From Gracilaria domingensis (lineage: Eukaryota > Rhodophyta > Florideophyceae > Gracilariales > Gracilariaceae): 64,000 nucleotides of DNA. Positions 34,157 to 63,559 of the stretch are shown in pieces; positions within the stretch are counted from its first letter, which is position 1; every line of letters begins with the position of its first letter. The position numbers and the translations under genes are program-made. Location of the stretch: positions 159,087 through 223,086 of the forward strand of contig VCMS01000055.1 in the NCBI GenBank assembly GCA_022539475.1, written 5' to 3'. The notes under the pieces are model-generated. The model was not told where the DNA came from. It saw nothing but the letters and a program-made list of their open reading frames with translations, and ran no database searches.

Positions 34157-34232
34157 ACTCCGTCCTACTTTTTTCCGCCCTCTACTTTATGGAGCCTCCA
34201 TAACGTAGAGGGAGGAAAAAAGAAGGACGGAG
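34157..34232. repeat. 38-bp-arm palindrome, copy A specific
   Basis: Arms 34157-34194 and 34195-34232 meet with no loop and match nearly throughout (ACTCCGTCCT ... AGGACGGAG). Copy B has a different palindrome at the equivalent place (49508-49589). Confidence 0.7.
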
Positions 34233-42642: not shown

Positions 42643-43705
42643 TCAAGCCTCGATCCGGATGCGGAACTGTAGCGGGCCGTGACGGCGAAGTAGCTTCAGT
42701 TTCACTTGAATTACCCTGTGGGGTACTGTGATAGTTTCCCCAGTAGGATTGGGAGCAACAGCGACGCGATCGCGTGAAAGCCGTTCATGAAGGCCATTAA
42801 TATCCAGCACGACAGTGTCCGTTCCGATGGAAATTACCCTATAAGGTCCCTCAGCAATAGGAGAGAGTTTGTACTTTGGTTCCTTTTCAGGATTGTAGTA
42901 TTCTATACGGACATAAACAAGGTCGCCAGGACTAAGAACCGAAGGTAACGGTGTACGAATTCGCTTTTCAAAGTTAGCCTTGTAGGCAGTTTGTGCTTTA
43001 GACATAGCTTTCCGAGCGACCGGAATCATCTTTCCTAACCAAGCCTTCCAGGTCCACATATAACCGGTGTGAAGGGAAGGTTCCCAACTTGAGTTGAGAC
43101 TCGATAGCTACCGGAGGCGGTATCCTCGATAGTATGAGCTCAAATGGGGATAAAACGGTAACACGGTGGACCTGTGTGTTGTAGGCATACGTAATAGCGT
43201 CTGTGAATAAGTCCCAATTGTTAGGGTGATCCGATGCATAGGATCTTAATTCGTTAAGCATCGTACGGTTGAACCGTTCAACTTGACTGTTCCCTGGGGG
43301 ATGATAAGTAGTGGTAAACAGATTCCTGACATCAAGGATACGGCAGACGTCCTGAAAGAAATTCGAAGCGAATTGTCCTCCATTGTCGGATAGAACCTGA
43401 ATAGGCGGGCCGTAAACAAAAATCCAATGCTGGACGAACGCTTGCGCTATCGTCGTTGCAGTGATTGTCTTTAAAGGACCTGTACGAACCAATTTGGAAA
43501 ACCTGTCGGTAATAAACAAAAGAAAACGATGGCCACGAGTGGTACGGAGTAGCCGTCCCAGAATGTCAATCGCCAGGAACTCCAGTGGAGCCTTTGCAGG
43601 AAAAGCGTGAGCTTCTTCGAGTATTTCCGCAGACGGACATTGTTCTTCTAGCATTCCGTACAACCACGGCGAACTGTGTAGCAGTCTACCGCCATTGCGG
43701 GCCAT
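42643..43705 (-). pseudogene. Gypsy integrase remnant
   Basis: 43705-42998 carries the DDE core: EFLAIDILGRLL with the first Asp, VLSDNGGQFASNFFQ with the second, and NSQVERFNRTMLNEL with the Glu, all in one frame. 43059-42643, in another frame, holds the C-terminal barrel (FEKRIRTPLPSVLSPGDLVY, then YKLSPIAEGPYRVI). The zinc-binding part precedes it in the RNase H frame (HLGGRKLYLTLRSDF). Catalytic residues are intact but the frame is not continuous. Confidence 0.82.
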
Positions 43706-44814
43706 TAGAAATCACTGCGTAGAGTCAAATACAACTTCCTTCCACCAAGATGAGCACCCAGTTTCACGTAATGTGACAAATGTAAAACTCTCTGCTGTAG
43801 AGTATGAGGTACCACAATCTGTGGATGTTCCTTATTAACGAAATGAACCAAATAACCTTGGTCATTAATAGCGAACGGAATCTGAAGACCTCCATTGAGG
43901 CGAGAGCCTATCTGCGTACAGAATGGATCGGACAACTGATCTCTTATCATCTCCTCAGGAGTAATAGGCACAAAGGAACCGGACGGGGGTTCCGTGGATT
44001 CGGTAACGAATACATCGTCACACACGTTATCATCTATCGTCTCGATCAAACCATTTTTGGTCATAACCATAAAACACGGTATCTCCAGGTCTTCCGTGAC
44101 GGATGTATAAGCGTTAGTCTCTAGAAAAGAAAGGGCATCTGCTTGGCAGTTCAGAGAACATTTCTTGTAGTGAACTTCGAAGTCGAATTCCGCTAAACGG
44201 AAACGCCAGCGCATTAACCTGCCAGAGGGTTCCGATATTCCGAAGAGCCAACGGAGAGCCGAATGGTCGGTATGCACCACGAAATGAGTATCCGTTAAGT
44301 AGGGTCGCAGTATGTTCAATTCCCATACGGCTGCTAAACATTCTTTCTCAGATACTGAGTAGTTCTTCCCATGAACATTCAGTGTCCTTGACCAATAGCC
44401 AATCGGTCTACGGGTTCCGTCTTCCATGGTTTGGAACAAATTGCAACCAACTTGGTAGGCACTAGCGTCTGTGTCAACCGAATATGGTAAACCAGGAGTT
44501 TGTAAAGCCAAAACTAGTGGTGACGTTACAGCGTCCACAAGGGACTGAAATGCGGAAGCTTCCGCTTCCCTGAAGGCTTCCAGCTCAACTGGCCTGCCCG
44601 TCTTCAAAAGCTCGTTAAGGGGAGCCGATATCTCGGCAAAATTGGCAACGAATCTACGATACACGTTACAAAGTCCAAGAAAAGAACGGAGTTCCGTTTG
44701 ATTTGTCGGATGCTTGGCTTCCTTCAAGGACTTCACATGAACTTCGTCAATCGAAAGCTTTCTGGGACGGATCGTATGTCCAAGATACTGAACCGAATCG
44801 GTGAAAAATCGCAC
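43705..44814 (-). pseudogene. Gypsy RNase H and RT thumb remnant
   Basis: 369 open codons. The RT connection reads LGHTIRPRKLSIDEVHVKSL, and FLGLCNVYRRFVANFAEISA; RNase H follows with LPYSVDTDASAYQVGCNLFQ, then KNYSVSEKECLAAVWEL and FVVHTDHSALRWLF. These are standard Ty3/gypsy blocks. This is the longest intact piece of pol. Confidence 0.85.
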
Positions 44815-45749
44815 TTCTCTAAGTTCAGAGTTATTCCGGTATCGTGGAGAACACGCATGATATCTGGCACATGAGACAAATGATCATCCATGTTGTCGGA
44901 AAAGATGATGATGTCATCAAGGTATACCAAACAGGTCTTCCACTTGTATGGAGCCAGTAGAATATCCAATGCTCTTTGGAACGTAGCGGGTGCATTTGTA
45001 AGCCCAAAGGGATTTCGTTTGAAAAGATACAAGCTTTGATGGCATACGAAACCGGTTTTGTCACGGTCTTCCTTGCGGATGGGAACTTGCTAATATCCCC
45101 AATTCGCGCTGAGGGCCATGAAAACCTGAGCACTCCCTAGTGAGTCAATGCATTCGTCCATTCGTGGAGTCTAGTAGACGTTCTTAATTGTAACCGAATT
45201 GAGGCGACGGTAATCAATACAGAATCGCCACAATCCGTCCTTCTTACGAGCTAGTACTACCGGTGATGCCCACGGGGATTGGGGCGTTTCGATGACTCCA
45301 GCCTTTAGCATCTTCTGAACTTCAGATTCTTCCTCTTCCCTAGCCTTAGGGCAAGCCCTATAAGGGTGCTGCGCTATCGGCCGAGTGTTCGGAAGGAGAT
45401 CAGTTCTGTGCTGGGTAATCTAGATCTTCCCTAGGGAACCGTCCCACATCGGGGTAAACTCCCTCAACATATCACGTAATTTCTCACGATGAGTGTCTGG
45501 TACATGTTCCACATTAAATTCTTCCAATTTCTTAACAGGATCCTCCTGTTCTTGTCCAGGGAGACTAGCCTTTGCCTCAGGCTCTAATGGTGCGTTCGGC
45601 GTACTGACATCCGAAACGGTTGCAATTATCTCCTCTTTCCCCTTCTCAGGGTGTTGTACGCCGAGTACGTCTGCGAAGGTAACCTTTGTAGGTTTACAGC
45701 GGCCAGATGCGGCAATACTGAACCAATAACATGGTGTTTGGTTAATCAT
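44733..45749 (-). pseudogene. Gypsy reverse transcriptase remnant
   Basis: 45749-45420 gives the RT N-terminal lead (EEFNVEHVPDTHREKLRDML). Between 45420 and 45030 RT blocks ([26 protein letters not shown]) are readable only across stops. 45032-44733 holds NPFGLTNAPATFQRALD and CLVYLDDIIIFSDNM with the YLDD catalytic pair. The frame changes near 44790 into the RNase H piece. Confidence 0.82.
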
Positions 45750-46633
45750 TGAGGTTTAGGCCTCAAATTGGTTACCAAAAGCTTAAAAGGCTTCTGAGGT
45801 TCAATATGAACAACTCCATTAGCGAGAGCAAGACGACGAGAATCATACAACGATTGTATCGGTTGCACGACACGTAAACCATGTCGGTCCGAGCTCACAG
45901 TGAACCAGATTTGAGATTCCGCCGGAATCGAAATTGAACGGGCGCACCGTAAACGAGTAGAACTTCTATTCATGTTTGGATTATCCTGTGCAGCAGGGAG
46001 AAGAACTTGGCGCTTGAAAGCTTGCCGAAGCGGCTTCCGAACAATCGGTATGGTCGAACCATCTTCCATTTCCACACATTTGGAACGCGGACGAATCGCT
46101 TCGACGAGCCTGTCGCAAAAGTCGCATCCCAGAATAACGGGAGCAGCTAGTGATTCGCATACGAGAAATTTCTATTGGACTGTACATTGGCCGAGCCGAA
46201 CCATCAGGTCAATGAATCCTTCTGTCCGTAACGGATTGTTGTTTGCATCGGCAATATCCAGAGATGGACCTTGACGAATCAACGACCGTAACGAGCCAGG
46301 TAACAACGATTTAACCAAAAGGTTAGGACCAGCTCCTGCATCTAGAACAGATAACTGTCGAACCATAAACTGGTTAGACAAGCCAAGGTCAGCGTAAACC
46401 TTGTAGTTACGCTTGGCGATGACCATAACCCGATCCGGGACACGGCGATTTCTATAACGCACCCACGGTCGACGCAGGTCACCAAAGTGTCTCGAGTTCA
46501 CGTCGCATTCAGCCCATTTATTAGTAAGAATCTTGACTGGGGAGCAAGGCGATGACGCCTCGGGCGCCCCTCCGTTCGGAGAGACTCCCAAAATTAGTTT
46601 TTCGAAGGCGAATCCACCGAAGCGGTTTTGCAT
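45746..46633 (-). pseudogene. Gypsy protease remnant
   Basis: 46633-46172 contains SVLDAGAGPNLLVKSLLP, an aspartic-protease active-site block with Ala in place of Thr/Ser. After a stop, AAPVILGCDFCDRL in the next piece is the second protease motif. 46075-45746 is a linker rich in Arg and Pro leading to RT. Confidence 0.65.
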
Positions 46634-48601
46634 CCGTCTGAGAACTGAATGACCTCAGAGATTTGTGCTCCTTGAGATACCGGTGCCGGGTTGGAGACCG
46701 ATGCAACGGTATTTGGCAAGAACAACGAACGGACCTGTTGGTAAGACAAATTCGGAACGCGCGCACGTTCTTCTTCCCTAAGGGACTCATAAGCTTCGAT
46801 AATCTTCGACATATCTTTCAGATTGAACTGACAACGGGTCGAAACATGAACACGATAGTAGCAAACGTGGCAGATAAGCGTTAACCTATAGAAGGGTGGA
46901 CGGGTATCCGTACGGTTATCCATCCGATGTTGCGGAGTAGTGTTATCCCGGCAACCGGGTCTACTGAAACGTGCGGTGTTGTTGGCATATGGGACCTTCG
47001 GTGGTACAACCTGTGTTCCCGCGTACAGAGCCGGGTCTTCCTCAGAGGAAATTGAGGTTGACGGAAACTCCGTTCTAAGCAAGGACTGTCTTCCCTGGCT
47101 TTGAGCCAAATGAACATTATCCACACCTGAATTTTCCGTAGAACGGTGGACTATCGAGAGTGATGGTGAGTTCTCCGCATGGACTATCTTAGAAGACCGA
47201 TGTTTCGGGTGTTGGCGAGCACACAAAGCATCTCCCTCTGCCTGGGGGAACTGAGCCAGTTGCAGGTAGGTTGCCTTCCTGTCGGATTCCCGATACCGGG
47301 ACACAAGTGTCCTGATGGCAGGATCTAAACCATCGCAACGCAAAGCGCATCGCTCATGTTGAGAATACACATTTCCACAACGATGGAAAGCCTTATTGAG
47401 GCGAGTCGAATAAAGCGTTTCCGTTTCTCCGGATTTCTGTTTTGTATCGCGTAAAGCTAAGATGGCAGACTGGATCGCAGTACCAGTGGCGTATGATCTC
47501 AGAAGGTATTGAACAGCTTCCGGCCAACAAGTTACACCTCCCTCCGAGGCACTAGAAACTCCCATGACGGAGCGAAACTGATTTTTAGCCATTCCTTTAA
47601 GGAAATACGGTAGTGCTACGAAAGCCTGTGCTTCACTCATCATAAGTATGTCGGCTTTCGATACGAAACGGGCGAGAAAGTCCAGTACCAAAATTGGGTC
47701 TTCACCAATGAAAGCGTGATCCTTCAGCGTGAGGTCCATTCTCTTGATACAGTCCTTCACACGACCTGTCCCACGGGGAGTACGATCAAGTGATGAATCG
47801 TCTAAGCGATAAATATCGATACGATAGCAGTTTCCGAAACAGGATGTTAGAGGGCTTCAACTCTTTGAGTCCAATGTGCTTCCTACCCTTTTCGCGGGTC
47901 ATGATGGTGCCGTGCGCAGCATAGGTAACCTTGGACCTTGTCGGTCGTTCGTGGCGTTCACGATATCCATCATTGGACGAGTCAGATGACGAAGTAGTAG
48001 AACTGTCCGAGTCGGAGTCAAAACGAACCAAACGGTCTTCATACGTAGTCGGTCGGTCCTTTCGGAACTTCTTTGAAGAATGACGGATTGAAACCCGAGT
48101 GCGGGCATCTTCCCTTGCTTGGGCAGCAATGAACTCTTCATCAGCCCGGAAAGTAGCCTCGAGCGTATCGATGCGACTCCGGGCTCGCTTTATCATACTC
48201 TGGAGAGTCTCGAAACGAGTTTCGATATTCGATACGAATATGGTCGGGGCACCGAAACCTTCCAACATGGAATTAATGTCCTTACGCATGGTGCGTAGTT
48301 CTGCACTAACATCCCCAACTTGGGCTTCCTCAACACGAGCTCGGAGAGTCTGAATATCCTGCAGATGATCGGTATTCGATATACGGAGAACCTGCACATG
48401 GGTCTTCAACTCCTCAACCTCTTGTACGAGAGAACCAAATCCGGTAGATATCACAGCCAACCCAACAGCCTGGGTAGCCGGGACATCCGGGGTCTGTTTC
48501 ACTTGGGCCGATGTCTGCTTTTCCTGCGTAGGATTCCGCGACACCTGCGTCTGTCTCTTGCAGATGCTAGTTTTTGGCGAGGGTCGTCCAGAAATTGGCA
48601 A
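46594..48601 (-). pseudogene. gag: Gypsy gag remnant, truncated by transposon copy B
   Basis: 47760-46594 has a capsid-like helical domain (DPILVLDFLARFVSKADI, AVQYLLRSYATGT, TRLNKAFHRCGNVYSQHERC) and a possible incomplete zinc knuckle (CHVCYYRVHVSTRC). 48601-47786, in another frame, is Arg/Ser-rich with a coiled-coil segment. Its first ~15 codons are read from transposon copy B sequence, so the true gag start is lost. Confidence 0.7.
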
Positions 48602-49507
48602 GGGTCGTCCAGTAAATTTTTTGAAAAATTATCGAGATCAATTATTTCAAAATTTGGAGATAATTGCTTGCGTCGTCCAGAATCGCTGTGCAGTAAATAC
48701 TGGTGGGTTTTCCACTCATGCTAGTTCTTTAGTCGAGGGCTACCTGAACCATCGCGAAGTCTAGGTTCAGTTTCCATTAAGGTGCACATTACACGATACC
48801 TTCTGCGGAATGATACCCTGCAACGCATGGAATACTGGTGCTAGTACAGATGAAGCCCATTATGAGATCATACCGTTTTATTCGTATCTATTCTTCTATC
48901 GAACGCTTTTGCTAACCACTACTTCGCTATATTACATGTACCATTTCCCCATGATGGAGCGGGTGTAGGCGCAATCTGCGGCAGATGCCGCAGACTGCAC
49001 CTCCACCATAGTGCTGTATCGGTAGAACAAATACGCACTCCGAGAGGATGAGGCGCGAAGCGGCTCATTCTCTCCGTTCCTCATGTAGGGAACCATGCCC
49101 AGATGCATGGTTCCCTACTTGAGGAACCTGCACCTGCAACTCGTGGGCTACGTCCGCATCAAAATTCATTTACCTGTATACGCAAGCACGAAGTATCCAT
49201 AAGTTAGTCAATGCTCCGTTGGATACATTTGAAATGCGATGGAACGTACCATTGATAGAGCAAAACAGAAACGTTGCGCTAGAAAAGTCGAGGGACCTAG
49301 TAACTCGCAAAAGTAACCCAAAGCCTTTTTCCTGCCGTTTACATGTCGCAGAGCGCGAAGAGACGTGGTGAGGATTGGTTAGTTTAGAACAAAGATAAGT
49401 AGAAGGATATGGAAGCACGTACGAAAAGACTGCACGGAAAGACTGCACGGAATACATCCGTGAGATACGGATGCTGTCCGCTTTATGGAGGCGTCCGACG
49501 AGGGCGG

Positions 49508-49589: not shown

Positions 49590-49999
49590 CACGCTACTTC
49601 GTAGCGAGTGCGAGGGCGGAAAAAAGTACGACGGAGCGGAGTAGAACGCGAGGATGGCACGGATCACGACGGTAACAGAAGGTCGGACGTCGGACCGGCG
49701 GCGGCGGCGGCGGAGGGAAGAGATTTATTTTTCTGTGCGAGATTGGACAAGTGTACAGCGTACAACGTTGGGAAACCACAGGTTTATAACCAGTGGTAGA
49801 TAATACGAGAAGTACACCCTTGTGTTGAGGTCGACGTGTACCTACGTTCCTTTTTGAACGAAAGCACGTGATTTAAACTCAAAATATATTCTCCGTTCTC
49901 AGCTTGACGTCGATCTTGACTGTCGCACGACCACCTTCTCTCCTCGGACGACCTTCTTTTGCCGTCTTTGTCGTCTTTTCTCCTTCATTTCTTCTTCCC

Positions 50000-52900
50000 A
50001 TGGTCTACTACTGTACACGTAAGAAGCGTGGGTGCCCCTTCGTTACTCGCCGAGGAGTCTTATCTCTTCAACAGCATGTCAACCATTGCCCGTTTTGTCT
50101 GAAAGCCGCGCTGGAAGACGACAATAGCCGGCCCATTCGGAGAAGCAAGCGTCTCAAGCTTTCCGCGCCCGCGCCCGCATCTTCCGAAACGGTCACTGCC
50201 CCTTGTCGCCTTCCCGAGCCTCCGGTGTCCGAGGACATCGTCGACCCCACTCCGTGCGCCCCTCCCATTCCGGACACTTTGCATTGTGTTTCTCCTTCCC
50301 CGGGTTCCGCGTCATTAGAGCGAGAACACGGAAGCAGTTCCCGCCCAGTGCCTTCTGAGGAGGCCCTCGGTGATTTGCATATGGATTATCTCATGGTTTG
50401 TCTTGTTTCAGTAGCTTCCAACCTTGCTCATCGTGAGGCAGACGAGCTAATTGGGCTACTTCGAGACCCGCGATTCTCGCAAAAGCGATTCAACGAGACC
50501 ATAACAAGTTCCAAGCGCCGTACAGAACTGAAGAACGCCATTTTCGAACGATACGCCTCAAAGGACGGTTTCAATCGAAGAACTGTCTCGCCAGAAGGAT
50601 ATAAGTTCAGCGCCACCCTCTACACGAGAGACCCCGTTCAGACACTTGTGAAACAGCTCCAGTTGGCTAACAACGAAAACACATTCTTCCACCCTATACC
50701 TCAGACCCACTCGACGAAAATATCTCACACCATGTCCGGCTCTCTCGCAAGAGACGCCACCTCAAAACTTAAGGAAATGGTCATGGGCTCTTTGGATAGT
50801 AGAATAGTGTGGTACTCCCAAGAAATAAGTTACAGTGAATCTTTCGTAGGTCTTCTGCAGGTATACACCGATAAGTTTTCAACAACTCTAAAGCAAACAT
50901 CGGTTACCGCCTATCCTCTTCACCTCATATTTCTCAACTTCTCCGACGAGCTTCGCCGTAAGTGTATCCGTGATGACCTCACAGTAGTGGCATACTTCCC
51001 TACCACACTGATCGAGGTTTCCGCATCTGAAGCAGACGCAATGCCATTCGTTTCTAGCAAGTCTCTACGCGAGTCCAGGATGCAAATCCTTCAAGAATCT
51101 CTTCGTCAAGTCCTGGAGCCCATTCTAAATCTCACGCAGAAAGTTTTTCAGTTCATCGGGGAAGACAAACTAAGTCGAATGTGCCATCTTCTGCTTGCAA
51201 GTTATTGTGCGGATATTCCTGAGGCTAAGGACATTCTGTCCATTCTTCATGGGACCAAAACGGAAAGCCCGTGTCATAGATGCAAAGCCCCTCGCTCATC
51301 TTTATGCAGTCCTATTCCCACCTCATTCAACGGACGTTCTCAAAAGAAACGAAAAGCATCCGAAAGACATACACAGCTATCTTGCAACATACACAAAAAG
51401 ACGAGGCGGAAAGACGTCCACGTCGTGCGAGGGAGAGGAGATCTCAAGCGGATACTCTGATGCGTTCAAATTCCATATCTCTCATTCCTTCGTTCCTCGA
51501 AACTTCCGTAAGCCTTGGAATGATCCCGGGATTGTCTCTATACAGTCTGTTCTCATTCAAACCATTACACAACTTGCATCTCGGCATCTCAAAGCTGATA
51601 AAAACGGCCACAATCGAGAGACTGCAGTCAGACACCCTGTGCACCACAATAGGAACATCTGCATCGCGTTCATTTCGAACGATACGCACCCAACTCCTCA
51701 ACCATGCAAACGCAATTCTAGCTGCCATAGAACGCGATTCTCCTGCCAAAGGTTTACATATCGATTTCTCCACGCAGGAGAAAGGTAAATCTTTGAATGG
51801 TATCTTCACGAAAGACGGTCTCCGTGGAATGCTGGAGGCCAAAAAATACAAAGCATTTGACATGGTCTTCCCCTTCATAGGAGCATTCTTTGACATATGC
51901 TGTAGAGAACAGGAGGTTGCCCCAATCACAACCGTTTTCTCTCAGTACTCGGACTTGCTTTCGACCTTATTCAGATACAATCGTGACCCGTATTGGACTG
52001 AAAGCTCTCTCCTGTGTCTTAGTTTGGAGATTGAAGCCTTCAAGCGTTCCGCAACAAAGACTCTGGCAGATTTTCATGCCTCCAGACTGGGAACTCTGAA
52101 GTTTCATCTTCTCGATCATCTCGTGGACGATATTCGCCGTCTGGAAAGTATCAAGTACTACGACGCAGGCATATACGAACATGCACACCTGCTATTTAAA
52201 AGAAACTACAAAAGGAAGTCCAGAAGAACAGCAACGTCTGTGGAGGAGACTATTCGCTCCATTGAGCACGGACATGTTAGAAAGCAATGGAATGGCAATA
52301 CTCCTTACCAGCGTAATCCAGGTTTACCAGGAACTTCCACACAGCTTCCTCGGTTTGCAATGAGAGGCCGTTCTTTCACTTTACGAGCTCTTCAACATTG
52401 TGTTTCAAGTATGTCCAGTTCAAAAACATGGACTGCTGTTAGAGAGATGTTCTCAAGTACGGACACAAGGTCGATTCTTGATCAAATTGGTGAACAGACC
52501 CTTCCTCCTTTCCTCAGTCTCGTGAAAGAAACACTGGATGAGCACTCTATTACATACTTCCCAGAAAAGACAAGGATAACTCTGGTGAATTCGGCCGTCG
52601 TGAAAGGCGGTTTCGTTCCGACTCTTGAACACTTCGATTCGTCTTCTAAGGCACTTAAGCTGGGACGACCCAAATACCCCATCATCCAACGTGTCTTCGC
52701 TTCTCCAGCATTTGGTCCCAGTAGAAAGCCAAAGTTTTCCACTGTATTGGTAAGCGGAGAAGATTCAGAGACTTGTGTTGCCCAGGTAGTCGCTCTGATT
52801 CGAATATCTCTCCTTGATTCTGCACTTACCGCACCAGAGGTGGCATTTGTCCGGTATTTCGAGGTTTTACCCCCCGCAACAAACATCGACCACATATTGA

Positions 52901-53178
52901 AATGCATATCTTTACGGTGGGCTACAAACGATGAAAAGAACCACACTCTTCCGTTCCCTCGTCATTCCAAAGCGGAGACTATCGTAGAGTTAACTCCTTG
53001 GTACGGGATGGTTCCGGCTTCTGCATTACAGGGAACTGTCCATGTTGTTCGATCAAACTACCCTGCTCCACCTTTTTGTCCTCCACTTCAATGGTTTCAA
53101 CACCGATTCTACATCAATCGATTCTATCATGATTCAGATGAAAGACCAACTGAGCACGTTGATCTTGTACAGCCTTAA
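50000..53178 (+). CDS. Transposase of Tnp2/plavaka-like (CMC or KDZ) class, one frame change
   Basis: Starts at the ATG at 50000. Residues 1-40 form a Cys/His cluster (CTRKKRGCPF ... HVNHCPFC), probably a DNA-binding zinc finger. The mid part (YSESFVGLLQVYTDKFSTTL, YFPTTLIEVS, CHLLLASYCADIPEAKDIL, then CHRCKAP) and the C-terminal part (SFKPLHNLHLGISKLIK; TLKFHLLDHLVDDIRRLES; YEHAHLLFKRNYK) follow the layout of Tnp2-like RNase H-fold transposases. Family choice between CACTA/CMC and KDZ/plavaka is uncertain. The first half (to 51460) and second half (51280-53178) are in different frames; a one-base shift is needed between about 51330 and 51460. About 1,060 aa if joined. Whether this copy is active is unknown. 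Confidence 0.7.
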
Positions 53179-54026
53179 ACATTAAGAGCTCCATCCTCTA
53201 CATGTTCACCTTGTGGTGCCTTTTCTTGTGATCCTGTGTTACTTCCGAAATCGTTCATGTCCATTTCCTTGAACTCCATATCCCCTTCCTCGCATTCACC
53301 AATGAAACAATCGCTAATAGACCCCAATCTTCGGCTCACACTGTCAATAAAAAATTGTTCTTTCACAGTGAGGTGAAGTCTTCCGTTCGACGGCATTCGA
53401 TATCCAAATGTAGCCTCTCTCATGTCATTACCAAGAACCTTAGTCCAATCTTCCGTTGTCGTTCCAAAATTATGAAACTCGCTGGAATTGGTCCTCAAGA
53501 CACGTTGCCTAACATCCCCCAGAACATTCTTTAAACACAGAGGTAGCAGTTCGGCAAACTTCTTTGTAAACAGTTTCTGTCTCTGGCCACCCCTTGACAC
53601 ATCCGTACTTAGAAGGCTCACAACCGTCAACACCCAAGCGTCCAAACGTGCGAGCAACAGTATTGTGCCATCTAAAAAGGTGCCCGTATCCTTGTCTTCC
53701 ACATCATACCCAATAAACTCCTTCAGCACTTGTACCCCGACACGGTTTCGGAAGAACAAGTCTTGATCTTCCGTCGGCATATCCTCGACATTGTCCGCAT
53801 TGGAGTACTTTAGACGAACAAATGGGGCTTTTCTCCACCATGAAGTGTTCGGTACACCATTTTCGTGAAGACGCAGTATGTTCTCCTGCGCTTCCTTCAA
53901 CTGCATTGTGAGTTTGTCAGCATTCTCTTCTACCAGCTTTGTTCTTCTCCAAATCAGATCGTACCCCAGGAGCAGAAATAGTTTATCCCTCGTATTTCTC
54001 TTCCGAACGCCCACGACGTCACTCAT
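53175..54026 (-). CDS. Transposon accessory protein 2, 283 aa, unrecognised
   Basis: The ATG at 54026 overlaps the stop of the upstream ORF as ATGA, so the two ORFs are coupled or form one protein across a frame shift. N-terminal helix (KLVEENADKLTMQLKEAQEN) is coiled-coil-like; the middle has DGTILLLARLDAWVLTVVSL; the C-terminus is acidic (IGECEEGDMEFKEMDMNDFG). It ends overlapping the last codon of the convergent transposase (53175-53178). A truncated copy exists in copy A, so it is part of the element. No family recognised. Confidence 0.6.
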   Translation of the reverse strand: MSDVVGVRKRNTRDKLFLLLGYDLIWRRTKLVEENADKLTMQLKEAQENILRLHENGVPNTSWWRKAPFVRLKYSNADNVEDMPTEDQDLFFRNRVGVQVLKEFIGYDVEDKDTGTFLDGTILLLARLDAWVLTVVSLLSTDVSRGGQRQKLFTKKFAELLPLCLKNVLGDVRQRVLRTNSSEFHNFGTTTEDWTKVLGNDMREATFGYRMPSNGRLHLTVKEQFFIDSVSRRLGSISDCFIGECEEGDMEFKEMDMNDFGSNTGSQEKAPQGEHVEDGALNV

Positions 54027-55570
54027 GGTCTACCGCATTCTCTGCCTAAGGCACATATCTGCACAAAGTTCCAGTATACACCTGTCCGTAAGAGATGCTT
54101 TTCTAATACTTCCCAGCTCAACTCCTTCAACTCGCTTTCAACCATTTTCTTCAGCAAAGCATCTGGCCCCCCCTCTACCGACGGTGTGAACATGCCAAAA
54201 CTGCCCAAGAGCTCCACGGGGTTTTTAGGAACCATGTATGAACCACCTTCCTCCGGCTCAATAAGGCCTTCCCCACTCTCAGTTGCGTCTTCCACCTTCT
54301 CGGCACGGTTACCCCAATTTCGGGTGAGCGACTCACCTTCGAGCCATGGCTCACTTGTTTCTCTCCTTGCCCACGTCAGCATGTTGTGATACACTGCTCG
54401 AGCAACCCCTCGAAACTCGTCGCACAGCTCAATTTTATGCTTCTTTCGACCTGTCTGCCCAGGTTCACCAGCATGTGTACTCCTATCTCCCTCCTGTTTC
54501 AGTGCCCCTCTTAGCCTTTCAATGACTAGATCCTTCTCTTCAAGCCTCTTTTTCAAAGCCGTACTCTGCTCTTGGGCGACCTTCACTAGAATACCCCGAA
54601 CGATCAAGTCCTCTTGTAGCGTCTTAACCTTTTCTTTCAAGCAATTCAGTTCATTTAAAAGATCACGTCTGTTCATAGAGGTTGAATTCACACCAGTGTG
54701 GATATCTTCCGGTATTTCCCTAGCCTCTTCGGCGACAGGCCCCGGTAATGCCGCAGGATTCGGTGTTATTTCGTTATCGGAACTATCCTCATGTGCCATA
54801 CCCTTAGACACGAGATGCTGCAGGCGTTCTGTGTCCACCCTTGGCACTGCTCCGAGCTCCAACTCCCGTGTCTGTCCTCCTCCATGGCATCGTATATCAG
54901 ATGAATTGGGCCTCGTACGAGCTGCAACGGCCCCCGTTCTGGAAAGAGGGGAAGGTCGAAGAGTAACTCGCCTATCAGTCGTCTCTCGATTTTTTATTGT
55001 CTTTCTCCCTTGTCCGGACCCATTGCGAGGCATAATACGATTCATAGCGGCACCAGTTCTAGAAGAGAAGGAAGGACGTGACGATCTTAATATATTAGGG
55101 TTCTCACAAATTCTCGTCATTGTCCCTTGTGGTCCAGATCCACTGGGGAGCGTAACCAGCGCCCCAGTAGCTCCGGTCTTCGATATCGGCCGGGTACATG
55201 AAGGTTTTGGTGTCATACGAACCTCTTCAGTCCCAGTTGTCATTCTCTCCTGTCCAGACCGGGTGGGCCGAGTTACCTTATCTTCTTGGGGAGCAGAGAC
55301 AGATGCACGATTTGCATTATCGGCAGTTGACGGCACGACATCGCTCGCTGATGCACGAATTCTTGACGCAATCCCGGAAGACGCTCCGCTGCAAGATGGG
55401 CGAGAGAGTACTGTAGAAGGACGCCGACTGACTCTCTCCTTCGTCGAGGACGACTTCCGTTTAGGAAGTGCGGTGCTTGTAGCCTGATTCGTATCATCCG
55501 ATGCCCTTCTCTTCTTCTCTCCACTCTTGTTCCGCTGCGTACTATTTCGCTTTCTCGGCGTTATACCCAT
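54023..55570 (-). CDS. Transposon accessory protein 1, 515 aa, basic with coiled coil
   Basis: ATG at 55570 begins a strongly basic leader with a likely nuclear localisation signal (TPRKRNSTQRNKSGEKKRR). Residues 20-260 are low-complexity Ser/Thr/Arg/Pro with repeats of the type RPSxSxRTGA. A coiled coil follows (LNELNCLKEKVKTLQEDLIV to KKRLEEKDLVIERLRG, near 300-370), then a more globular end (FRGVARAVYHNMLTWARRET; GSFGMFTPSVEGGPDALLKK). It may be the DNA-binding second protein of the transposon, as TnpA is in CACTA elements; that is analogy only. Followed with ATGA overlap by the 283-aa ORF. Confidence 0.6.
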   Translation of the reverse strand: MGITPRKRNSTQRNKSGEKKRRASDDTNQATSTALPKRKSSSTKERVSRRPSTVLSRPSCSGASSGIASRIRASASDVVPSTADNANRASVSAPQEDKVTRPTRSGQERMTTGTEEVRMTPKPSCTRPISKTGATGALVTLPSGSGPQGTMTRICENPNILRSSRPSFSSRTGAAMNRIMPRNGSGQGRKTIKNRETTDRRVTLRPSPLSRTGAVAARTRPNSSDIRCHGGGQTRELELGAVPRVDTERLQHLVSKGMAHEDSSDNEITPNPAALPGPVAEEAREIPEDIHTGVNSTSMNRRDLLNELNCLKEKVKTLQEDLIVRGILVKVAQEQSTALKKRLEEKDLVIERLRGALKQEGDRSTHAGEPGQTGRKKHKIELCDEFRGVARAVYHNMLTWARRETSEPWLEGESLTRNWGNRAEKVEDATESGEGLIEPEEGGSYMVPKNPVELLGSFGMFTPSVEGGPDALLKKMVESELKELSWEVLEKHLLRTGVYWNFVQICALGRECGRP

Positions 55571-55615
55571 GTTGTGGAGATAAACAGGGCAATGAAACGA
55601 AATTGTTGGGAAGAC

Positions 55616-55640
55616 AGGGGGTGGGGGGGGGGGGGTGCAT
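55616..55640. repeat. G-run at possible right edge of copy B
   Basis: GGGGGTGGGGGGGGGGGGGT lies between the start of the 515-aa ORF and the stop of the methyltransferase-SET gene. It resembles the G-runs of the palindrome array at 59.3-59.9 kb. Confidence 0.5.
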
Positions 55641-55818
55641 GGTTCAGATATTCCGGGAGACTCCGCAGTTTCTGCTTTTTAGGAATTTGAGATGCCCAAT
55701 GGGTCGCAAATATCGCCGTTACAGATGAAGAGCTCCAGTGTACATGTGCAACAACGCGTATTGCAGGCAGCTGCAACACTCACAAGCATATTTACTTTCT
55801 ATTCGCTACTGAACTCAT

Positions 55819-58800
55819 CTATTGCTCCAATGTCAGAGCCCAGTCCCAGGCGTACTGCTCTCCGTAGTCGAAATACAACTCTTCGCCCCTCTCAATATCT
55901 CTTACTGCTCTACAACGAAGTAGAGCATAGTTAGAAAGGTCTGACTTGAACTGTATCACGGACTTCGCTCCAACCACCTGCACATTGGCACTTCGAGTCC
56001 TGTTTGACCGGGGCTCCGATGAATCGGGATCCCCGGCATGATATCCGGCGTCGTTAATGTAGCCCCCGATACAAAAACGCGCCGGGACAATGTAGACTTC
56101 GCTCTCCTTTCTATCCTGAGCCTGTCCTGGTCTGTTCCTCAGGTGCAGAAACTCCGTACCAGTCACAGTGACCATCATAGAAAACAACTTGTACCGCACA
56201 GGAGTTGCTCCGAGACAGCCACTTCCATACGTTAAATGTCTTTCCTTCCGGTTCGTCAGATCCGTGTATACCAAAGTTCCATAAAAATGACAGATAGTTT
56301 CCCCAGCCAATATCTTATGTTCCGTGAACACCCCCATACCAGCACGGGGATGTCGAATCTTAGAAGATGCTATATGTAAGCGATAGCGATTGGCTTCAAC
56401 AGTCAACAGCATATGCATATCCATTAGATTCAGAGCTCCTCGGTACTTCTCCTCCCAAAGATCTACAGTATGCTGTCCACACTTGTCGACAAAGTCCCAG
56501 TCCTTCCAGTATCTTCCTAGGAACTGAGTTATATGTGCAGGCATCACTTGGTACTGGGGGTATCCAAATGGAGCCTCCCATTCAAGCCGACCTCGGTCCC
56601 GATGTGGAACCCGTTCATAAGTCGTTGAAGCAGCATCCACCACCTCCTGTTCAACCAGGATGCCATTCTTCCCCCCGCGAATAACTTCGGCCATAAGAGT
56701 CGTTAGATGGTGCTTCGCATGGCTGAAACATGGCCTATTCTTCTCGCACCCCAAGAACTTCCTATGCCTTGTCAGCGATAGGCAGGCCATACCCGTAGAA
56801 AAAGTTCCCGCGAACATGTCCATGACAAGATCACCCGGTCTTGTGAAGCGACATATCAACTCTTTCATCAACTCCCTCGACTTCTGCTCCGGTCTTATGT
56901 ACTGCCCACCTGGTACTGAACTACCTGGCTCATGTACCTTCCATGTCAACCACTCCCCCGCTCTCGGTTTTGGCACCCGGTCAATTACATTCCTGTTAGC
57001 CGGGAAAGTAGAAGGAATGAAATTGTTCTCCTCAAATGGAGTAAGACTGGCTTCCTCCGATGGTCGCAATCCACGCTTCACCCCATGAACGGCGTACTCC
57101 GTTACGGGCTGTATCCCAAACTTTCATGGATTCCCTCCAACATTACTTCGATCCCGGATGAACACCAGTGCATTCCCATCCACTTTAAACGAAGGCATGA
57201 GTTCTGGCTTACCTTCGCTTCCAGCGCCATCTTTCGTACTCGCCGTTTCCGAAAGTATTCTGTGCCAAACATGAAACTGTGCCATGGCACAGAATATAAT
57301 GAAGTGCCCACCTGACCGAAGCGCGGAACTTATTAAGTCAGCCGTACCGATCATGTCATCCTCACTGAAGACATCGTGAGCACTATTCCGCTTGCTCCTC
57401 TTCCTTCGAGTGTTAAAGGGAGGGTCTGTTAGGACAAGCTGTGCCTCACCCCATAAAATCTCACTCTGATTCACAAACGTTTCGTGTGTGTGCCTCAGGT
57501 CCTTCATGTCACAGTTGTACGCTACAAAGTGTGACTTTCTCATCCCCTTCCACACCTTGTCCATATTCATTCGAAGGAGACTGGATATCCCCTTCATGGG
57601 CGGCTCAATACCAGTCTTTTGGATGTTGTAACCGGCAACCCGAGATTCATGCTCCGCAAGATTCACCGGCTTCTCGAAGTCGTCGCTATCGGAGCTCACG
57701 AGGTTCATATACTCTCGACGAGGTGAGGGTGGGGCAGACTTGGTCGAAGAAGGTTCGGCATTACCGGAAGTTTTAGGGGTTTTCGTTAGTTCAATATCAG
57801 GTTTCGCGTGAATGCCGACATGGAACCCTGCCGCATGACGCATATCCTGTATCGGTTTTCATAGCAACTCCGAAAACTTCAGAAATCGAGCAGGCAACTC
57901 ACCGGAGTGAGAACCAGATACGGTATCCATCCGTATCTCCGAAAACTCTATCCAGTTTCTCATCTGATCAGCCCGTAAGCTATAGAGGCTATCGTGGGTG
58001 CATACGGTTTCGAGGTCAGTCAAAATTTCCTTAGCCAGTATTCGGAGGTTTTTATCGCATTCATCACTCAAGGTCTCCACCGATCCACTAGTACTGCTCT
58101 GTGGCACATCCTGCGTGTTAAATCGAGTACTCTCGCTCGGCGGGGCATAACCAGACTCCCGTGTCTCTAGCGCCGTATACTTCAACGTCTGCATATTCAT
58201 GTATATGTATAGTTTCACCATATGCTGAAGGTTCGTGTATCCAAGATGAGCCGCAAAACAACTCCATGCCCATACGACCTCACTGATAGCGAATCCCAGT
58301 CAATCACAGTTGTTTTTGGAGAACGACGTAAAAGTGGGTATGTACACAGATGGTGCATGGTTCACTTTTCCTTTCTTTTTCGGTTGTTTCTTCTTCATCA
58401 TTCGGATGTTGTCGTTCTCTCCCATTATGTGGCCGAGGTATGATAAGTATATAACGACCTCAAATGGGTTCACAGCTGTTGGTGGGATGAACACTGTCGT
58501 CTTCAGAACCTGCTTTCTTCTGGTCATGAAATAACCAACCAGGCATCGCACCGGTAGGTATATACCCATATCCATAGAGAGAAGGAAAAAATCGCGCAGT
58601 CTCTGGTCCTCATTCGCGTCCTTCTTGTCAAGAAGCTTCGTTACAAGATATCGTTGTTCCACAGGTTTGTTATTCACAACACTCTTTCGCAGCTGTTGCA
58701 GTGTCAAGTTCTGCAGGTTCTTGGAGTTAGTGGCCTCCTCAAACATCTTCCTTGCCTCCGGAATATCCTTATAGTTCTCGGCGCAGAACTCTATTAACCC

Positions 58801-58956
58801 TCTAAACCCCACGTCCCGTGGCCGATCAGGGCCTCCATCGCTGTTTGCCAAAGCATCGCGAAGAACCAAGAAAAGTCTGACATATGCATGGAACGCCGGA
58901 GGCGGAGCACTCATGTCGATAGGATGTATCTCCTCTCCAACACCGGTGTAATCCAT
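55819..58956 (-). CDS. Beta-class DNA methyltransferase - SET domain fusion
   Basis: One minus-strand frame runs 58956-55819 (1,046 codons) broken only by three TGA codons (58300, 57859, 57124). The first two vanish in in-phase GT-AG introns: 58345-58283 (63 nt) and 57902-57828 (75 nt, GTGAGT/CAG). The third has only a weak in-phase candidate. Order: about 220 unrecognised residues; methyltransferase motif IV DPPF (57426-57415); then SAM motif X/I RPGDLVMDMFAGTFSTG (about 56830-56785). IV before I is the permuted beta class of N6-adenine/N4-cytosine DNA methyltransferases. SET domain from about 56350: AGMGVFTEHKILAGETICHF, GGYINDAG, and DIERGEELYFDYGEQY at the end. Oddities: Phe replaces Gly in motif I, and the SET Asn-His site reads Asn-Asp. 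Activity unproved. Divergent from the ParB-like gene. Confidence 0.8.
57828..57902 (-). other. Candidate intron 2 of the methyltransferase-SET gene
   Basis: 75 nt with consensus donor GTGAGT and acceptor GCGGCAG, removes the TGA at 57859 in phase; the junction reads His-Ser-Gly-Phe-His-Val. Confidence 0.6.
58283..58345 (-). other. Candidate intron 1 of the methyltransferase-SET gene
   Basis: 63 nt, GTACAT donor and TATCAG acceptor, removes the TGA at 58300 and keeps the reading frame (Ser-Val-Glu-Val-Val-Trp across the junction). Confidence 0.5.
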
Positions 58957-58979
58957 CGCTTCAGCGCAAACAACGGAGG

Positions 58980-59062
58980 CGAGCCTTTAAATGGCGACTT
59001 ACGCTGGGCACCCCCGCTTTCGGCAGCTCCTCCCAGCGCAGTCTCGTCTGTGTCCGTGTCCG
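58980..59062 (-). promoter_or_regulatory. Left mirror arm / promoter of methyltransferase-SET gene
   Basis: Reverse complement of 60222-60309, identical over its first ~61 bp. Contains TTTAAA and, on the minus strand, a consensus splice donor AGC/GTAAGT starting at 59002 and pointing at the gene start 46 nt away, suggesting a 5'-leader intron. Position is 24 nt from the ATG at 58956. Confidence 0.65.
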
Positions 59063-59199
59063 CTCGGTGCGATAGCGTCGCGTGTCGGCCACGTCGCGAT
59101 TCGGAGCTATTGCAACGGTCCCGTATTGTGCTAAAAGTCGCGGATCAAGTGGGTGTGAGGCGGTAGTTTTCTCTAGTTTGATATATGTGCACGGCGTGT

Positions 59200-60010
59200 G
59201 CAGCGAAATCACTGCCGGAAGTGCCAGGAGGAGTGTTTTGGGAGGTCTCCGGAAGGCGCCGGAATGTGGCCTAAACGTGCCCGCGGACGGGGGGGGGGGG
59301 GTCGGTCGTGTTAGGGTAGGTACCCTAACACGACCGGACCCCCCGCCCGCGGGCATAAAATCGCACATTTTTCAAAAAATCGTCCAAAACGTGCCCGCGG
59401 GCGGGGGCGTCCAGTCGTGTTAGTGTAGGTACCCAACACGACCGACCCCCCCCCCCCGCCCGCGGGCACATTTTGGACGAATTTTTGACACCCTCCGGAG
59501 ACCTCCCAAAACACTCCTCCCGGCACTTCCTGTACCCACTGCGTCACCTCAGTGCACCATCCCGGAAATTAGGGAGTGTCTGGAGGGTGGAGAAGACGGG
59601 ATGGTCACCTCAGTGCACTATCCCGGAAATTAGGGAGTGTCTGGAGGGTGAAGATGACGGGATGGTGCACTAAGGTGACGCAGTGGGTACAGGAAGTGCC
59701 GGGAGGAGTGTTTTGGGAGGTCTCCGGAGGGTGCCAGAATGTGGCCAGAACGTACCCGCGGGCGGGGGTGGGGGTCGGTCGTGTTAGGGTAGGTACCCTA
59801 ACACGACCGACCCCCCCCCCCCCCCCCGCCCGCGGGCACGTTTTGGGCGATTTTTTGAAAAATGTGCGATTTTATGCCCGCGGGCGGGGGGGTCCGGTCG
59901 TGTTAGGGTACCTACCCTAACACGACCGACCCCCCCCCCCCCGCCCGCGGGCACGTTCTGGCCACTTTCCGGCGCCTTCCCGGGACCTCCCAAAACACGC
60001 CGCCCCGCAG
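59200..60010. repeat. Nested G-run palindrome array
   Basis: Four palindromes of about 80-90 bp (59276-59355, 59390-59469, 59750-59842, 59873-59956) share one design: GTGCCCGCGG, a run of 7-14 G, GTCGGTCGTGTTAGGG, centre TAGGTACCCTA or TACCTACCCTA, then the complement. Each is nearly perfect. They are set symmetrically around a centre near 59606, so that flanks such as GAGGAGTGTTTTGGGAGGTC (59230 and 59705 side) recur inverted on the opposite side. G-runs of this length with short spacers can form G-quadruplex or cruciform structures. It lies midway between two divergent genes. Confidence 0.85.
59545..59667. repeat. 61-bp tandem repeat, two units, at palindrome centre
   Basis: CACCTCAGTGCACCATCCCG starts at 59545 and again (one change) at 59606; each unit includes CCCGGAAATTAGGGAGTGTC and ends near GACGGGATGGT. 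Flanked by inverted copies of GTGACGCAGTGGGTACAGGA. Confidence 0.8.
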
Positions 60011-60221
60011 TGATTTCGCTACACCCGGCTGCCGGTACGTTGGCGCCGCTGTCCACGTGTATTTGCGGGAGTAGGCTGTACATGGAAATGAATGAGTGTA
60101 CTCTTGACTACTATGCAAAGCATTTGAAGAGCATGATTAGAGAACGCGACCATTGCTCGCGTGAGTCATCATTGCGCGAACTCCACGACTCTAAAGCGTA
60201 CAATCAGTGTGCGAGCGGCCA

Positions 60222-60309
60222 CGGACAGGACACGGACGAGACTGGCAGTGCGCTGGGAGGAGCTGCCGAAAGCGGGGGTGCCCAGCGTAAGTCGCCATTT
60301 AAAGGCTCG
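60222..60309 (+). promoter_or_regulatory. Right mirror arm / promoter of ParB-like gene
   Basis: Inverted partner of 58980-59062, with a 6-bp insertion (TGGCAG-type) near its outer part. Carries the same TTTAAA and the splice donor GTAAGT at 60287, pointing at the ATG at 60380. A matching acceptor GCAATAG ends at 60370, ten bases before the ATG, so a ~84-nt leader intron is plausible. Confidence 0.6.
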
Positions 60310-60379
60310 CATCCGTTCTTGTATCGTCCAGAGCGAGCGTATTGTTGATATACACCTTTCACTGCAATAGCTGTTCAAC

Positions 60380-63300
60380 ATGAAGCCAACTCGTGTTCGA
60401 AAGCTTACCCAAAGCGTGACTCCTCGCACTCGGCGGAGCACTCGATTATTGCAAGGTGGAATGCGGGTTTCTCTGCAGATGGATATTGAGGATGAAGGAA
60501 AGGTGATAGTCGGGAAAGCGTTGTTGCATGGAATTGGAAGTGTTCTACGCCGCGAGTTGCACGGGAAGCAATTGGAGCCAGGTCTTGTGGTGGTTCATAA
60601 TATTCTCATCAGTCGAAGCGGTCAGACTTTCTACCCTTACCGGGCGGAGGGCCTGGATCTTCCCCAATATATCCAAGATCTCCGGACGGCCGCTCCTTGG
60701 GATGAGAAAATGATGGAACCGGTGGCAACCAGCATTCCGGCGTCCAAGCGAGGAACGGTGAGCGCTACGAGTGAGGTGATGACGCCGACAAGCCGCACGG
60801 AGCCAATTCGAAGTTCATCAACACCGAGAGGTAGCGCATCAGTAGCACCTCCGCGGGCAGGTCCGTCGTCTGTTACGAAGCGGTCTATGGAGACGAGAGC
60901 ATCCCCAGCTACGAAGCGGACAGGTCAAAAAAAGTCTACCTCCGCTACGAAGCCCACTGCGTCGAAAAGGGCTTCTCCTGCGATGAATCAGACCGTCGAC
61001 ACAAGGGGATCTTCTGCGTCGAAACAGACGGTTCAGCAGGGGACGGCTGTGCAAGAGGAGGAAGATGAGATCATGAAAGGTCCCCTTCCAGACGCGGATG
61101 CGCAATCCGCACAAGGAGCTGGTCTATCTGTACCCGAAACTGCACCAGAAACTGCGGAGCAGCAGGACGATGACGTTGTGCTTCTGTCCGCAAGAATGGC
61201 ACGTTCAAGTGTTTCTGGCGAGCGGTCTGGAACACAAGGGACACCTACTCGGAGCAAGACGTACAGACGAATTCGTCAGAAGGTACCAAAGGTGAACCTC
61301 AATCACTACCGGATGGTTGCTGTTACTGTTGACATCACTCTGGTGGACACTCCGCCCAATTTACTCCGTGGAGTAAGTAAACGCCACGTTGAAGCCCTTG
61401 TGAAGAGTATGGAGAAGCGGGGGATATTGCAGTCGATGGGTTCTCCAGTGGTGGCCTTACAAGATGCTACTACGGGAGATAGGGATACTGACAAGGGACG
61501 CCTAACGAAGAAGTGCTTCATTGTAGATGGTTTGCATCGTCTGAAAGCTATACAATATTTGGCAGCGACTGGTGCACCGAAGTGGAAGCGATTAGCCAAG
61601 TTTTGGCGTTGCAATCTGCTGATACGAAGAGATGGGAGGCCCATTGGAATGAAGGAATTGTTATGTGTTGCTTCGTACCTCAATGAGTCGACGAGTACCA
61701 TGCGAAGGATGATGTTTGCAGACAAGATACACTCTATAGTTAGTGTGGTCGCCATTCTAATTGAAGATGTTGAGGGGGTGACGCCGGCAGACGTAGATCC
61801 TGCAGAAGTGACAGAAGTGTTGAAGGAGAGCCAACTGATTGGGACTGTGCAAGAGCGTCAGTATCTGAGATATGCCAATGTCGCCCTGCAAATCATGTCT
61901 CGTGAGGGAATGCTGGCCCATTTTGAGGATATATGTGAGACTGTGAGTGACATAGGTCTCACTTATCTCTCCCATACTCCGTTATATGTTTTGGATGCCG
62001 AGGAGTTTTCCTTCATTCTTGATTGTCTTCGGATCTTTCTATTGAAGGGCAAGTCGACGAAGACAAAGCAATGGAAAAGATTTGAGCAGGTTCGAGGTTT
62101 CTTTTATGATAGAGCAGTGTCTCTGTTCCGCGCGGCTCGAGCAGTGAGGAATGAACTGAACGAGGAAGAGTCCATGGAAGTGTTCCTGAAACGCGAAGTC
62201 AGTCTTTCTGCTCCATCGAATGAAGATGACGTTGAAGACCCAGACAACAACGCAGCTGTGTATCAGTTCCTTTTGGGACAAGTTGTGAACTTCAACACAT
62301 TGCCGCGTGTTCGGAGCAGGACGAACTCAATTAGAACTGCCACGACTTCCGTTCAGAATCGATTGCGGACGATGCTCAAGGTAATTCCGCCCCCCGCACC
62401 AGTGAAGCAGTCCGTGACGAAGAGGAGGACTCCCGCTGCTGCTGCTGCAACATCTGCCAGTGAAGAAGGGGAGCCGCGAAGAAGTGCACGAGAACGGGCG
62501 CAGGTGAGTTATAGGGAAATTGAGCACGGCCGAAATCGAGGTGCCATAGAAGTTCTGGATAGCTCTGAAGAAGAACAGCGGGCTCCGCCGAGGAAGAAAC
62601 AGAGAAAGACTTTCACACAACAGATGAGATCTACTCTGAACAGCATGACACCGGATGACCTGATGTCTCAAGTAAATGAACATGTGCTGAGAGGAAGGTC
62701 GATGAAGGTTCAGTTCGTGGCATTGGGAGAGGGAGCGAATGCAGAGAACGCAGGCATTTCTGCATTTGTGGATGACGAAGAGCTTCTTCCTGTGACGGTT
62801 CCACGGGTTGTCACCCTCGAGAAAGATGCTGCGCCAGACGATCAGCAAGAGATAGGTGGGGGGTCATTTGATCACGAGTTACCTACAGCTCTTCCGGAAT
62901 CTGAGGAGCACGGACTTGTTCGAGGAGACCCATATGATGGCCCACCGAACCCATCATGGTGCGGGTATGTCAGGCTGAGACCGCAGGAATGGTAAGGGAA
63001 GAACGTAATTGAGCACAAGGACCCCTGGCTCAGAGTCATTCACTTGCCGAAGGGACATAGGTCGGAGCTGCTAAGTGTCTCGAATCTCAGAGATGTACAC
63101 CATCTAGTCTTTGGGCACGCTGCAAGGGCTGAACATCGCCTACGGGCGGAGACATTTGGTATGCAGTATCCTCGTACTCGACCGACAGGTATGGATGATG
63201 AAGAGGTGCTGTGGGTTGCTGCGAAGGAGCATGACGAATTTGGGCAAATGTTCTTCGCCCGAATGCAAGCTGAGCTAAGGCAGAATGGATATTGCGTGCT

Positions 63301-63559
63301 TGATGGCTTTGCGACGGATAATGGTGTCCCTAAATGGGAGGAGTTGGAAGAAGTTCGGGAGTTCGGAGATGTGTCGGGGAAGTTGGTGGACTTCTTCGAG
63401 AATGAGTATGGAGCGATGCCGGATATACGGAAAGGGGAGGAACAGAACTTGTTTGTTCAAATAATCAACGATGATGAAGGATGGAAGGACGGGAGCGATG
63501 GACCATTTGAGGGGAGAGTGATGTCGACACGTGGGGTACGGTGGAGAGCCGGAGGATAA
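60380..63559 (+). CDS. Large ParB/sulfiredoxin-fold-like protein
   Basis: Exon 60380-62964, then a proposed 69-nt in-phase intron (62965-63033, donor GTATGT, acceptor CTCAG) that removes the TAA at 62995, then 63034-63559; about 1,036 aa, though the 3' end may be spliced further. The N-terminus is basic (MKPTRVRKLTQSVTPRTRRS). Residues ~110-230 are low-complexity with repeated Ser-Pro-Ala-x-Lys units. A ParB-like N-terminal domain spans about 305-450: NLLRGVSKRHVEALVKSMEK and FIVDGLHRLKAIQYL (near 380-394), matching the DG-HR core of ParB/Srx folds. A Ser/Glu/Arg-rich nuclear-type segment lies near 700-750 (PRKKQRKT). Family knowledge: ParB proteins bind palindromic parS sites and hydrolyse CTP; phage ParB-like domains often accompany DNA methyltransferases. 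DNA binding is inferred. Confidence 0.72.
62965..63033 (+). other. Candidate intron of the ParB-like gene
   Basis: 69 nt, donor GTATGT, acceptor GGCTCAG; it removes the only stop (TAA, 62993-62995) between two long parts in the same frame, joining Trp-Cys-Gly to Val-Ile-His. Confidence 0.6.

Follow-up and report, generated by a model that had tools for sequence, protein, structure and literature searches.

A high-copy Plavaka-type transposon of the red alga Gracilaria domingensis carries a DNA methyltransferase-SET fusion gene beside a likely ParB-type gene

Fungal Plavaka elements (PlavakaB) and other DNA transposons encode TET/JBP dioxygenases, whose role is read as anti-silencing in the available parts of PMC12730594, and the same parts cite oomycete HarbingerS and MuDR elements as carriers of SET genes. 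Bdelloid rotifers have captured a bacterial beta-class enzyme, N4CMT, as a host gene that marks transposons, according to the available sections of PMC8885841. Here we describe a locus within 64,000 nucleotides of Gracilaria domingensis DNA (hereafter the window; C55:159087-223086, running to the contig end), where comparison of copies places a gene fusing a DNA methyltransferase (methylase) to a SET domain inside a high-copy Plavaka-type DNA transposon, facing away from the gene of a likely ParB-type protein across a nested palindrome. As far as the available text of PMC12730594 goes, the kind of system is already known from TET/JBP-bearing Plavaka and SET-bearing HarbingerS elements, and it is the cargo that differs. 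Like the fungal TET/JBP Plavaka elements described there, the algal one has a Plavaka-type transposase, an element-borne gene for modifying DNA or chromatin, a 2-bp target duplication (here at short elements) and a likely anti-silencing role; unlike them, it resides in a red alga rather than a fungus, and it carries as cargo a methyltransferase-SET writer plus the gene of a likely ParB-type protein, no TET/JBP profile match having been found. HarbingerS and MuDR share the transposon-borne SET domain but differ in transposase superfamily, and a DNA methylase-SET fusion goes unmentioned for them in the available parts of PMC12730594. N4CMT is likewise a eukaryotic, permuted, bacterial-type DNA amino-methyltransferase of the beta class, and 8s9m-8s9o are among the structure matches of the Gracilaria methylase; by contrast, N4CMT, as presented in the available sections of PMC8885841, is a host gene combining an SPPY motif with a chromodomain, whereas the Gracilaria gene is element-borne and combines DPPF with SET. 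No report of a methylase-SET/ParB module was found in the literature searched, a scope outside which falls the likely most relevant paper, Iyer, Zhang and Aravind 2016.

The assembly searched comprises 77,892,253 bases in 680 contigs. Comparing ten loci with the window revealed one repeated unit, whose left terminal repeat CGTCTGTCTCTTGCAGATGCTA (window 48548..48569, plus strand) shows the same boundary at eight other places and whose right end is CGTCTGTGTTCTGCAAAGTGGAATA read inwards; the window's own right end falls beyond the contig end. Exact copies genome-wide number 475 for the left end and 489 for the right end, with 0 for a control. The first 100 listed places per end, of which 93 left ends (contigs up to C64) and 100 right ends were used, gave 47 facing pairs that span 6.4-24.3 kb; 12 of these fall at 10.1-10.8 kb and another 5 at 22.3-22.9 kb. 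Among the matches listed, at least 7 of the 47 enclose a match to the methylase, to the ParB-type gene or to the C-terminal part of the latter, and none of the 12 at 10.1-10.8 kb encloses a scored one. At three independent loci the distance between the ParB C-terminal match and the right end is 7178, 7176 and 7155 bp, which is what a unit should show. The genes thus stand between the terminal repeats of a unit that recurs at many loci, and not next to a transposon as a preliminary description of this DNA had placed them; that they are host genes merely near a transposon was rejected, since they recur between identical ends.

From left to right, the window and the copies on C171, C164 and C5 show the Plavaka transposase (plus strand), an accessory open reading frame (ORF; minus), the methylase-SET gene (minus), the palindrome and the ParB-type gene (plus), except that C164 is without the accessory ORF stretch and an N run covers most of the methylase-SET gene and palindrome in C5. 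The transposase is frame-broken in the window (49877..53178, plus strand; frames 49877-51460, with a Pfam Plavaka match at 6.8e-17, and 51280-53178), and in C171 it forms one 999-codon frame matching Plavaka (PF18759) with 66.5 bits against a cut-off of 26.3 (E value 3e-18). A Plavaka element is expected to leave a duplication of 2-3 bp, and 2 bp were found in 6/6 short pairs inspected, one mis-oriented pair having been excluded from the duplication counts. The termini read CGTCTG..CAGACG, where those of fungal Plavaka are TGT..ACA (A) or CATCA..TGATG (B) in the available parts of PMC12730594; because the termini differ, the element is at most Plavaka-like, of a lineage that falls in neither fungal group.

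As the preliminary description had it, two large frames diverge in the window (55819-58986, minus strand, and 60371-63559, plus strand) from a nested palindrome. The methylase-SET gene occupies 55819..58956 on the minus strand, with its ATG at 58956-58954, and its frame is open from 58986. Within this frame, TGA codons at 58302-58300, 57861-57859 and 57126-57124 make the window copy dead; these three are its difference in frame from an intact reference copy, to which it aligns with zero gap columns, and at least nine other copies hold one open frame of 1055 codons. On intact copies, Pfam N6_N4_Mtase (3.9e-15; residues 516-753 of the 1055-residue frame, mapping to window 56728..57441, minus strand) and SET (1.4e-7; residues 883-1042, window 55861..56340, minus strand; 32.3 bits against a cut-off of 22.4) both match, bearing out a permuted beta-class methylase and a SET domain in one protein. 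The DPPF motif precedes the FAGTFSTG motif, in the beta-class order of DPPY/F before the S-adenosylmethionine block, and the fold is CcrM-like; with the nearest structures being mostly N6-adenine enzymes, we infer from these and from DPPF that the methylase would write N6-methyladenine. VIA-align rows represent the methylase part, the N-terminal region and SET being barely covered. A SET domain is expected to show GxG, an NHxxxPN-like motif and ELxFDY. Here GxG and a GEE...Y stretch are conserved, ND stands in place of NH throughout the aligned family, and the C-terminus varies by copy, with YFDYG in the window, C164 and C597 and YFNYG in eight other compared copies. Scored copies number 97 of 735 methylase candidates and 52 of 935 ParB candidates. 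The ratio of nonsynonymous to synonymous polymorphism (pN/pS) of the methylase-SET gene is 0.30-0.38, and selection on the gene is supported at the level of sequence.

Several other readings were considered and rejected. An altered meaning of TGA was discarded, since at least nine copies are stop-free in the same frame and all three stops (TGA, TAG, TAA) occur alike where copies are broken. The short introns of the preliminary description did not survive either, given that intact copies are single-frame, with 1055 codons for methylase-SET and 1308 for the ParB-type gene. Cytosine deamination left no CpG-specific signature in methylase or ParB copies: changes of C>T/G>A per site-copy were 0.0060 at CpG and 0.0069 elsewhere in methylase copies, and 0.0097 and 0.0077 in ParB copies. 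C:G>T:A changes were about twice as frequent as A:T>G:C in ParB copies (0.0082 vs 0.0037), but not so in methylase copies.

The ParB-type gene (60380..63559, plus strand; open frame 60371-63559) has a TAA at 62993-62995 in the window and is broken in frame after 63559, while at C296 and C81 it forms a single 1308-codon frame covering a ParB part and a C-terminal part absent from the preliminary description. Proteins of the ParB/Srx type have a DGxHR box followed by an NE..R helix motif. The ParB-like core (61280..62150, plus strand) contains both, as VDGLHRLKAI (near 61523-61552) and NEST...MMFADK, which resembles the second ParB motif. Two annotated Gracilaria domingensis proteins, P0001 and P0002, match at 92% and 89%, P0002 reading VDDLHGLKAI; their public names, 'mediator of RNA polymerase II transcription subunit 15-like' and 'cell-wall-anchored protein SasA', look wrong. 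A weak ParB-like match over about 40 residues was obtained in PHROGs with P0001 (0.0014) and the C171 copy (0.0025), and the protein is likely of ParB type, the indirect evidence from fused relatives (below) being somewhat stronger than this direct match. The C-terminal region starts in the window at 63240..63559 (plus strand) with GYCVLDGF, its HTD...H...R part being degenerate there; in the intact frame the last 300 residues run GYCVLDGF ... HTD ... GSH ... DVTHAG ... RYHMY. Dioxygenases dependent on 2-oxoglutarate and Fe(II) carry HxD...H...R. The same order is found here as HTD, DVTHA and VRY, which we take to be dioxygenase-like, although unconfirmed by any library, and it gives a hint, at the level of motifs, that this part may be a dioxygenase. 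Public annotation of P0001 and P0002 omits part of the region, but C296 and C81 keep it in open frame, which argues that it is coding.

The GC-rich palindrome between the two genes (59217..60009) contains 26-bp palindromes CGTGTTAGGGTANNTACCCTAACACG at 59307, 59780 and 59899 plus a fourth, degenerate one near 59416; its inverted pairs reach 123 nt at 92% (59222-59344/59887-60009) and are nested inside outer arms at 97%; on folding, a 211-nt stretch gave z = -14.9, with 0/200 shuffles as good. A promoter-proximal cassette of methylase-SET (58969..59040, minus strand), holding CATTTAAAGG, recurs before the ParB-type gene (60249..60320, plus strand) as a 97% inverted match, and this 72-bp cassette stands upstream of both genes in 9/9 compared copies having both arms, with a within-copy identity of 82-99%. 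CATTTAAAGG is possibly a TATA-like box, and the palindromic intergenic region is probably a bidirectional promoter. Between the arms, compared copies carry one to five instances of CGTGTTAGGGTANNTACCCTAACACG with at most 4 mismatches, C419 having a further second cluster; none was found at C597 and C5, which there run into a contig end or a stretch of N. Exact CGTGTTAGGGTANNTACCCTAACACG sites number 1046 genome-wide, as opposed to 0 for the reversed pattern; of 50 sites listed, 32 fall inside one of 14 paired elements, and 12 of these 14 pairs hold at least one, indicating that the palindrome is a feature of the element, short class included. It is a possible candidate site for the ParB-type protein. 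Each arm of the 26-bp palindromes at 59307, 59780 and 59899 has one TTAGGG hexamer, the common telomere repeat, maybe by chance. The proposal of a mobile-element module of methylase, SET and a likely ParB-type protein is sustained by recurrence of the divergent pair: among the matches listed, 21 of the 52 scored ParB copies have a scored methylase-SET gene divergently oriented within 10 kb, 1 has it non-divergent and 30 have none.

The methylase-SET protein belongs to a diverse family, with 64 relatives (clusters) found in other sources. The 'adenine specific DNA methyltransferase' of Chondrus crispus (P0007) is 34% identical over 96% of the query region, and it and the other 63 have the methylase followed by SET and an N-terminal region that aligns in part, although precomputed Pfam does not list SET for some of the 64. 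Three (P0055, P0059 and P0062) have by motif a DGxHR box in an N-terminal module, with phage ParB matches in PHROG at 0.014, 0.093 and 2.1e-5, respectively. A profile of these fused N-termini also retrieves P0051, P0057 and P0026, and it retrieves Gracilaria P0001 at 7.5e-4, the best shuffled sequence scoring 1.9; profile-profile alignment of the Gracilaria ParB part with the fused modules spans 120 columns with P 5.8e-4, where eight column shuffles gave P 0.12-0.52. In a tree of 62 rows, from which three relatives without the anchor were left out, 5 of the 6 module-bearing proteins fall in one group apart from Gracilaria, indicating that ParB and methylase-SET are separate genes in the Gracilaria lineage. 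The few ParB-methylase-SET fusions from other sources suggest a pairing of greater age and wider occurrence than the Gracilaria genome alone. No ParB box was found by pattern in the nearest prokaryotic or viral methylase frames at the 15 of 115 loci examined, and tblastn of P0062 against phages returned 15 records, each confined to the methylase part. Among viral proteins, the methylase-SET model is best matched by a phage 'ParB/Sulfiredoxin' protein (BFVD A0A6J5MMM5, E value 1.1e-11), with a root-mean-square deviation of 26 over 495 columns in which the matching parts are not pinned down; unlike the Gracilaria protein, it has no known SET or transposon.

We tentatively propose, with a little less than even trust, that the element carries a marking system in which the methylase-SET protein and the likely ParB-type protein mark the element's own DNA and chromatin and act against silencing. 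The ParB-type protein would bind the 26-bp palindromes and bring the writer to element copies, the SET domain would methylate histones nearby, and the C-terminal part, should it be a dioxygenase, would strip off or oxidise a mark of silencing. In this way the element would evade silencing, as has been suggested for the TET/JBP-bearing transposons of fungi. It is unlikely that the system is a complete self-targeting one, derived from phage-type ParB-methylase pairs, in which a fusion of ParB and a DNA-demethylating dioxygenase, loaded on about a thousand centromere-like palindromes that the element has spread, directs a DNA-adenine/histone methyltransferase to the element's own copies and so lets the element write its own chromatin state. 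A number of results weigh against an anti-silencing marking system. The window copy of methylase-SET is dead. The preliminary description's ParB domain has the weak PHROG support of P0001 and the C171 copy, and no Pfam or NCBIfam ParB match was found in the Gracilaria protein, nor a PHROG ParB match in P0002; methylase, SET and linkage withstood the profile searches and the test of co-occurrence, with ParB matched weakly. The AlphaFold2 model of the ParB-type protein is unusable (mean predicted local distance difference test score 36), and pN/pS outside the core is 0.84-0.86. The C-terminal segment has no dioxygenase profile match in Pfam, NCBIfam, PHROGs or PDB sequences, and its pN/pS of 0.73 comes from five copies with few changes. 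The link to the fused modules is one-sided, which lowers the odds slightly: P0002 scores 0.56 with the fused-N-terminus profile, hhalign gives the match a probability of 29%, reverse searches from Gracilaria to the three fused proteins gave a non-significant 2.1-4.8, and the fused proteins were absent among the matches listed in a second reverse search. Moreover, fusions in 3 of 64 relatives are few, and the relatives that have them are not closely related to the Gracilaria protein. Finally, 2-bp duplications were found in 0/5 longer pairs (two on C41, and C34, C5 and C164), the ends of which may have changed, as a partial explanation, and palindrome clusters also occur in short elements without a scored copy of either gene, so the palindromes are not special to the gene pair and may serve transcription or transposition.

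The module could instead serve transposition itself, methylation of the ends or palindromes gating excision or tying it to replication and ParB holding ends or sisters together, a role with a precedent in Tn10, for which Dam methylation gates excision or couples it to replication. The genes do lie inside the terminal repeats, and palindrome clusters are internal in short and long elements alike. However, short elements without scored genes are common (12 of the 47 pairs, among the matches listed) and have their duplications in 6/6 cases, so the module seems unneeded in cis, supply in trans being still possible, and we consider this role doubtful. A repressive role, in which a silent mark limits the element's own copy number or suppresses competing elements, would likewise come as something of a surprise: SET and DNA methylation can be repressive, and bdelloid N4CMT, which marks transposons, is linked with silent marks on chromatin in the available sections of PMC8885841, but self-silencing gains the element little and the fungal parallel is read as anti-silencing in the available parts of PMC12730594, neither point being decisive. 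That the genes are passengers, captured without a function in the life of the element, is quite improbable. The element does carry HAD-like and Rossmann-looking ORFs too, many copies are broken, and constraint on the ParB gene is weak beyond its core; by contrast, the pN/pS of methylase-SET, the diversity of its family across 64 clusters and the joint promoter cassette all speak against mere cargo. In this high-copy seaweed element, a fusion of a bacterial-type DNA methylase and a histone-type methylase is kept under apparent selection, and next to it stand a candidate targeting protein and candidate sites. It is disputed whether bacterial-type adenine methylation truly has a role in multicellular eukaryotes, and the copies of this element offer a direct case for asking if a transposon of a eukaryote can set a mark on its own DNA.

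The accessory ORF (53175..55678, minus strand) is broken into 284 and 551 codons in the window and is one 832-codon frame in C171, with no significant family match in Pfam, NCBIfam or PHROGs. The ParB-type gene is followed by two HAD-like ORFs (plus, minus; Pfam Hydrolase_3 at 5.1e-5 and 7.2e-13), a Rossmann-looking ORF (minus), a coiled-coil-looking ORF (plus) and the right end. Two diverged HAD-IIB phosphatase-like ORFs adjoin in opposite orientation within the element at L053:6977-7759 and L053:7818-8885. The Rossmann-looking ORF, without a family match in Pfam or NCBIfam, is free of stops in 106 of 113 scored matches (566 candidates), mostly as frames of 415 codons, and is present in short (C2) and long elements (for example C2:406254-407336, C34:187477-188559 and C164:40622-41704). 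The last palindrome of the short element at C2:399366-409872 lies about 1.6 kb from this ORF, a gap that leaves no room for the ParB gene of about 4 kb.

A prokaryotic or viral origin of the contig was rejected, the ORFs in the left part of the window being nuclear-looking by eye and Gracilaria domingensis proteins matching. Retroelement-looking frames, named by eye as of Copia and Gypsy types, are present at window 25736-28168 (integrase- and reverse-transcriptase-like) and 43705-48628 (gag/pol-like). A second, truncated left-part copy of the Plavaka-type element lies at window 32914-38094, with a slightly different end and mostly 93-95% likeness to the compared copies.

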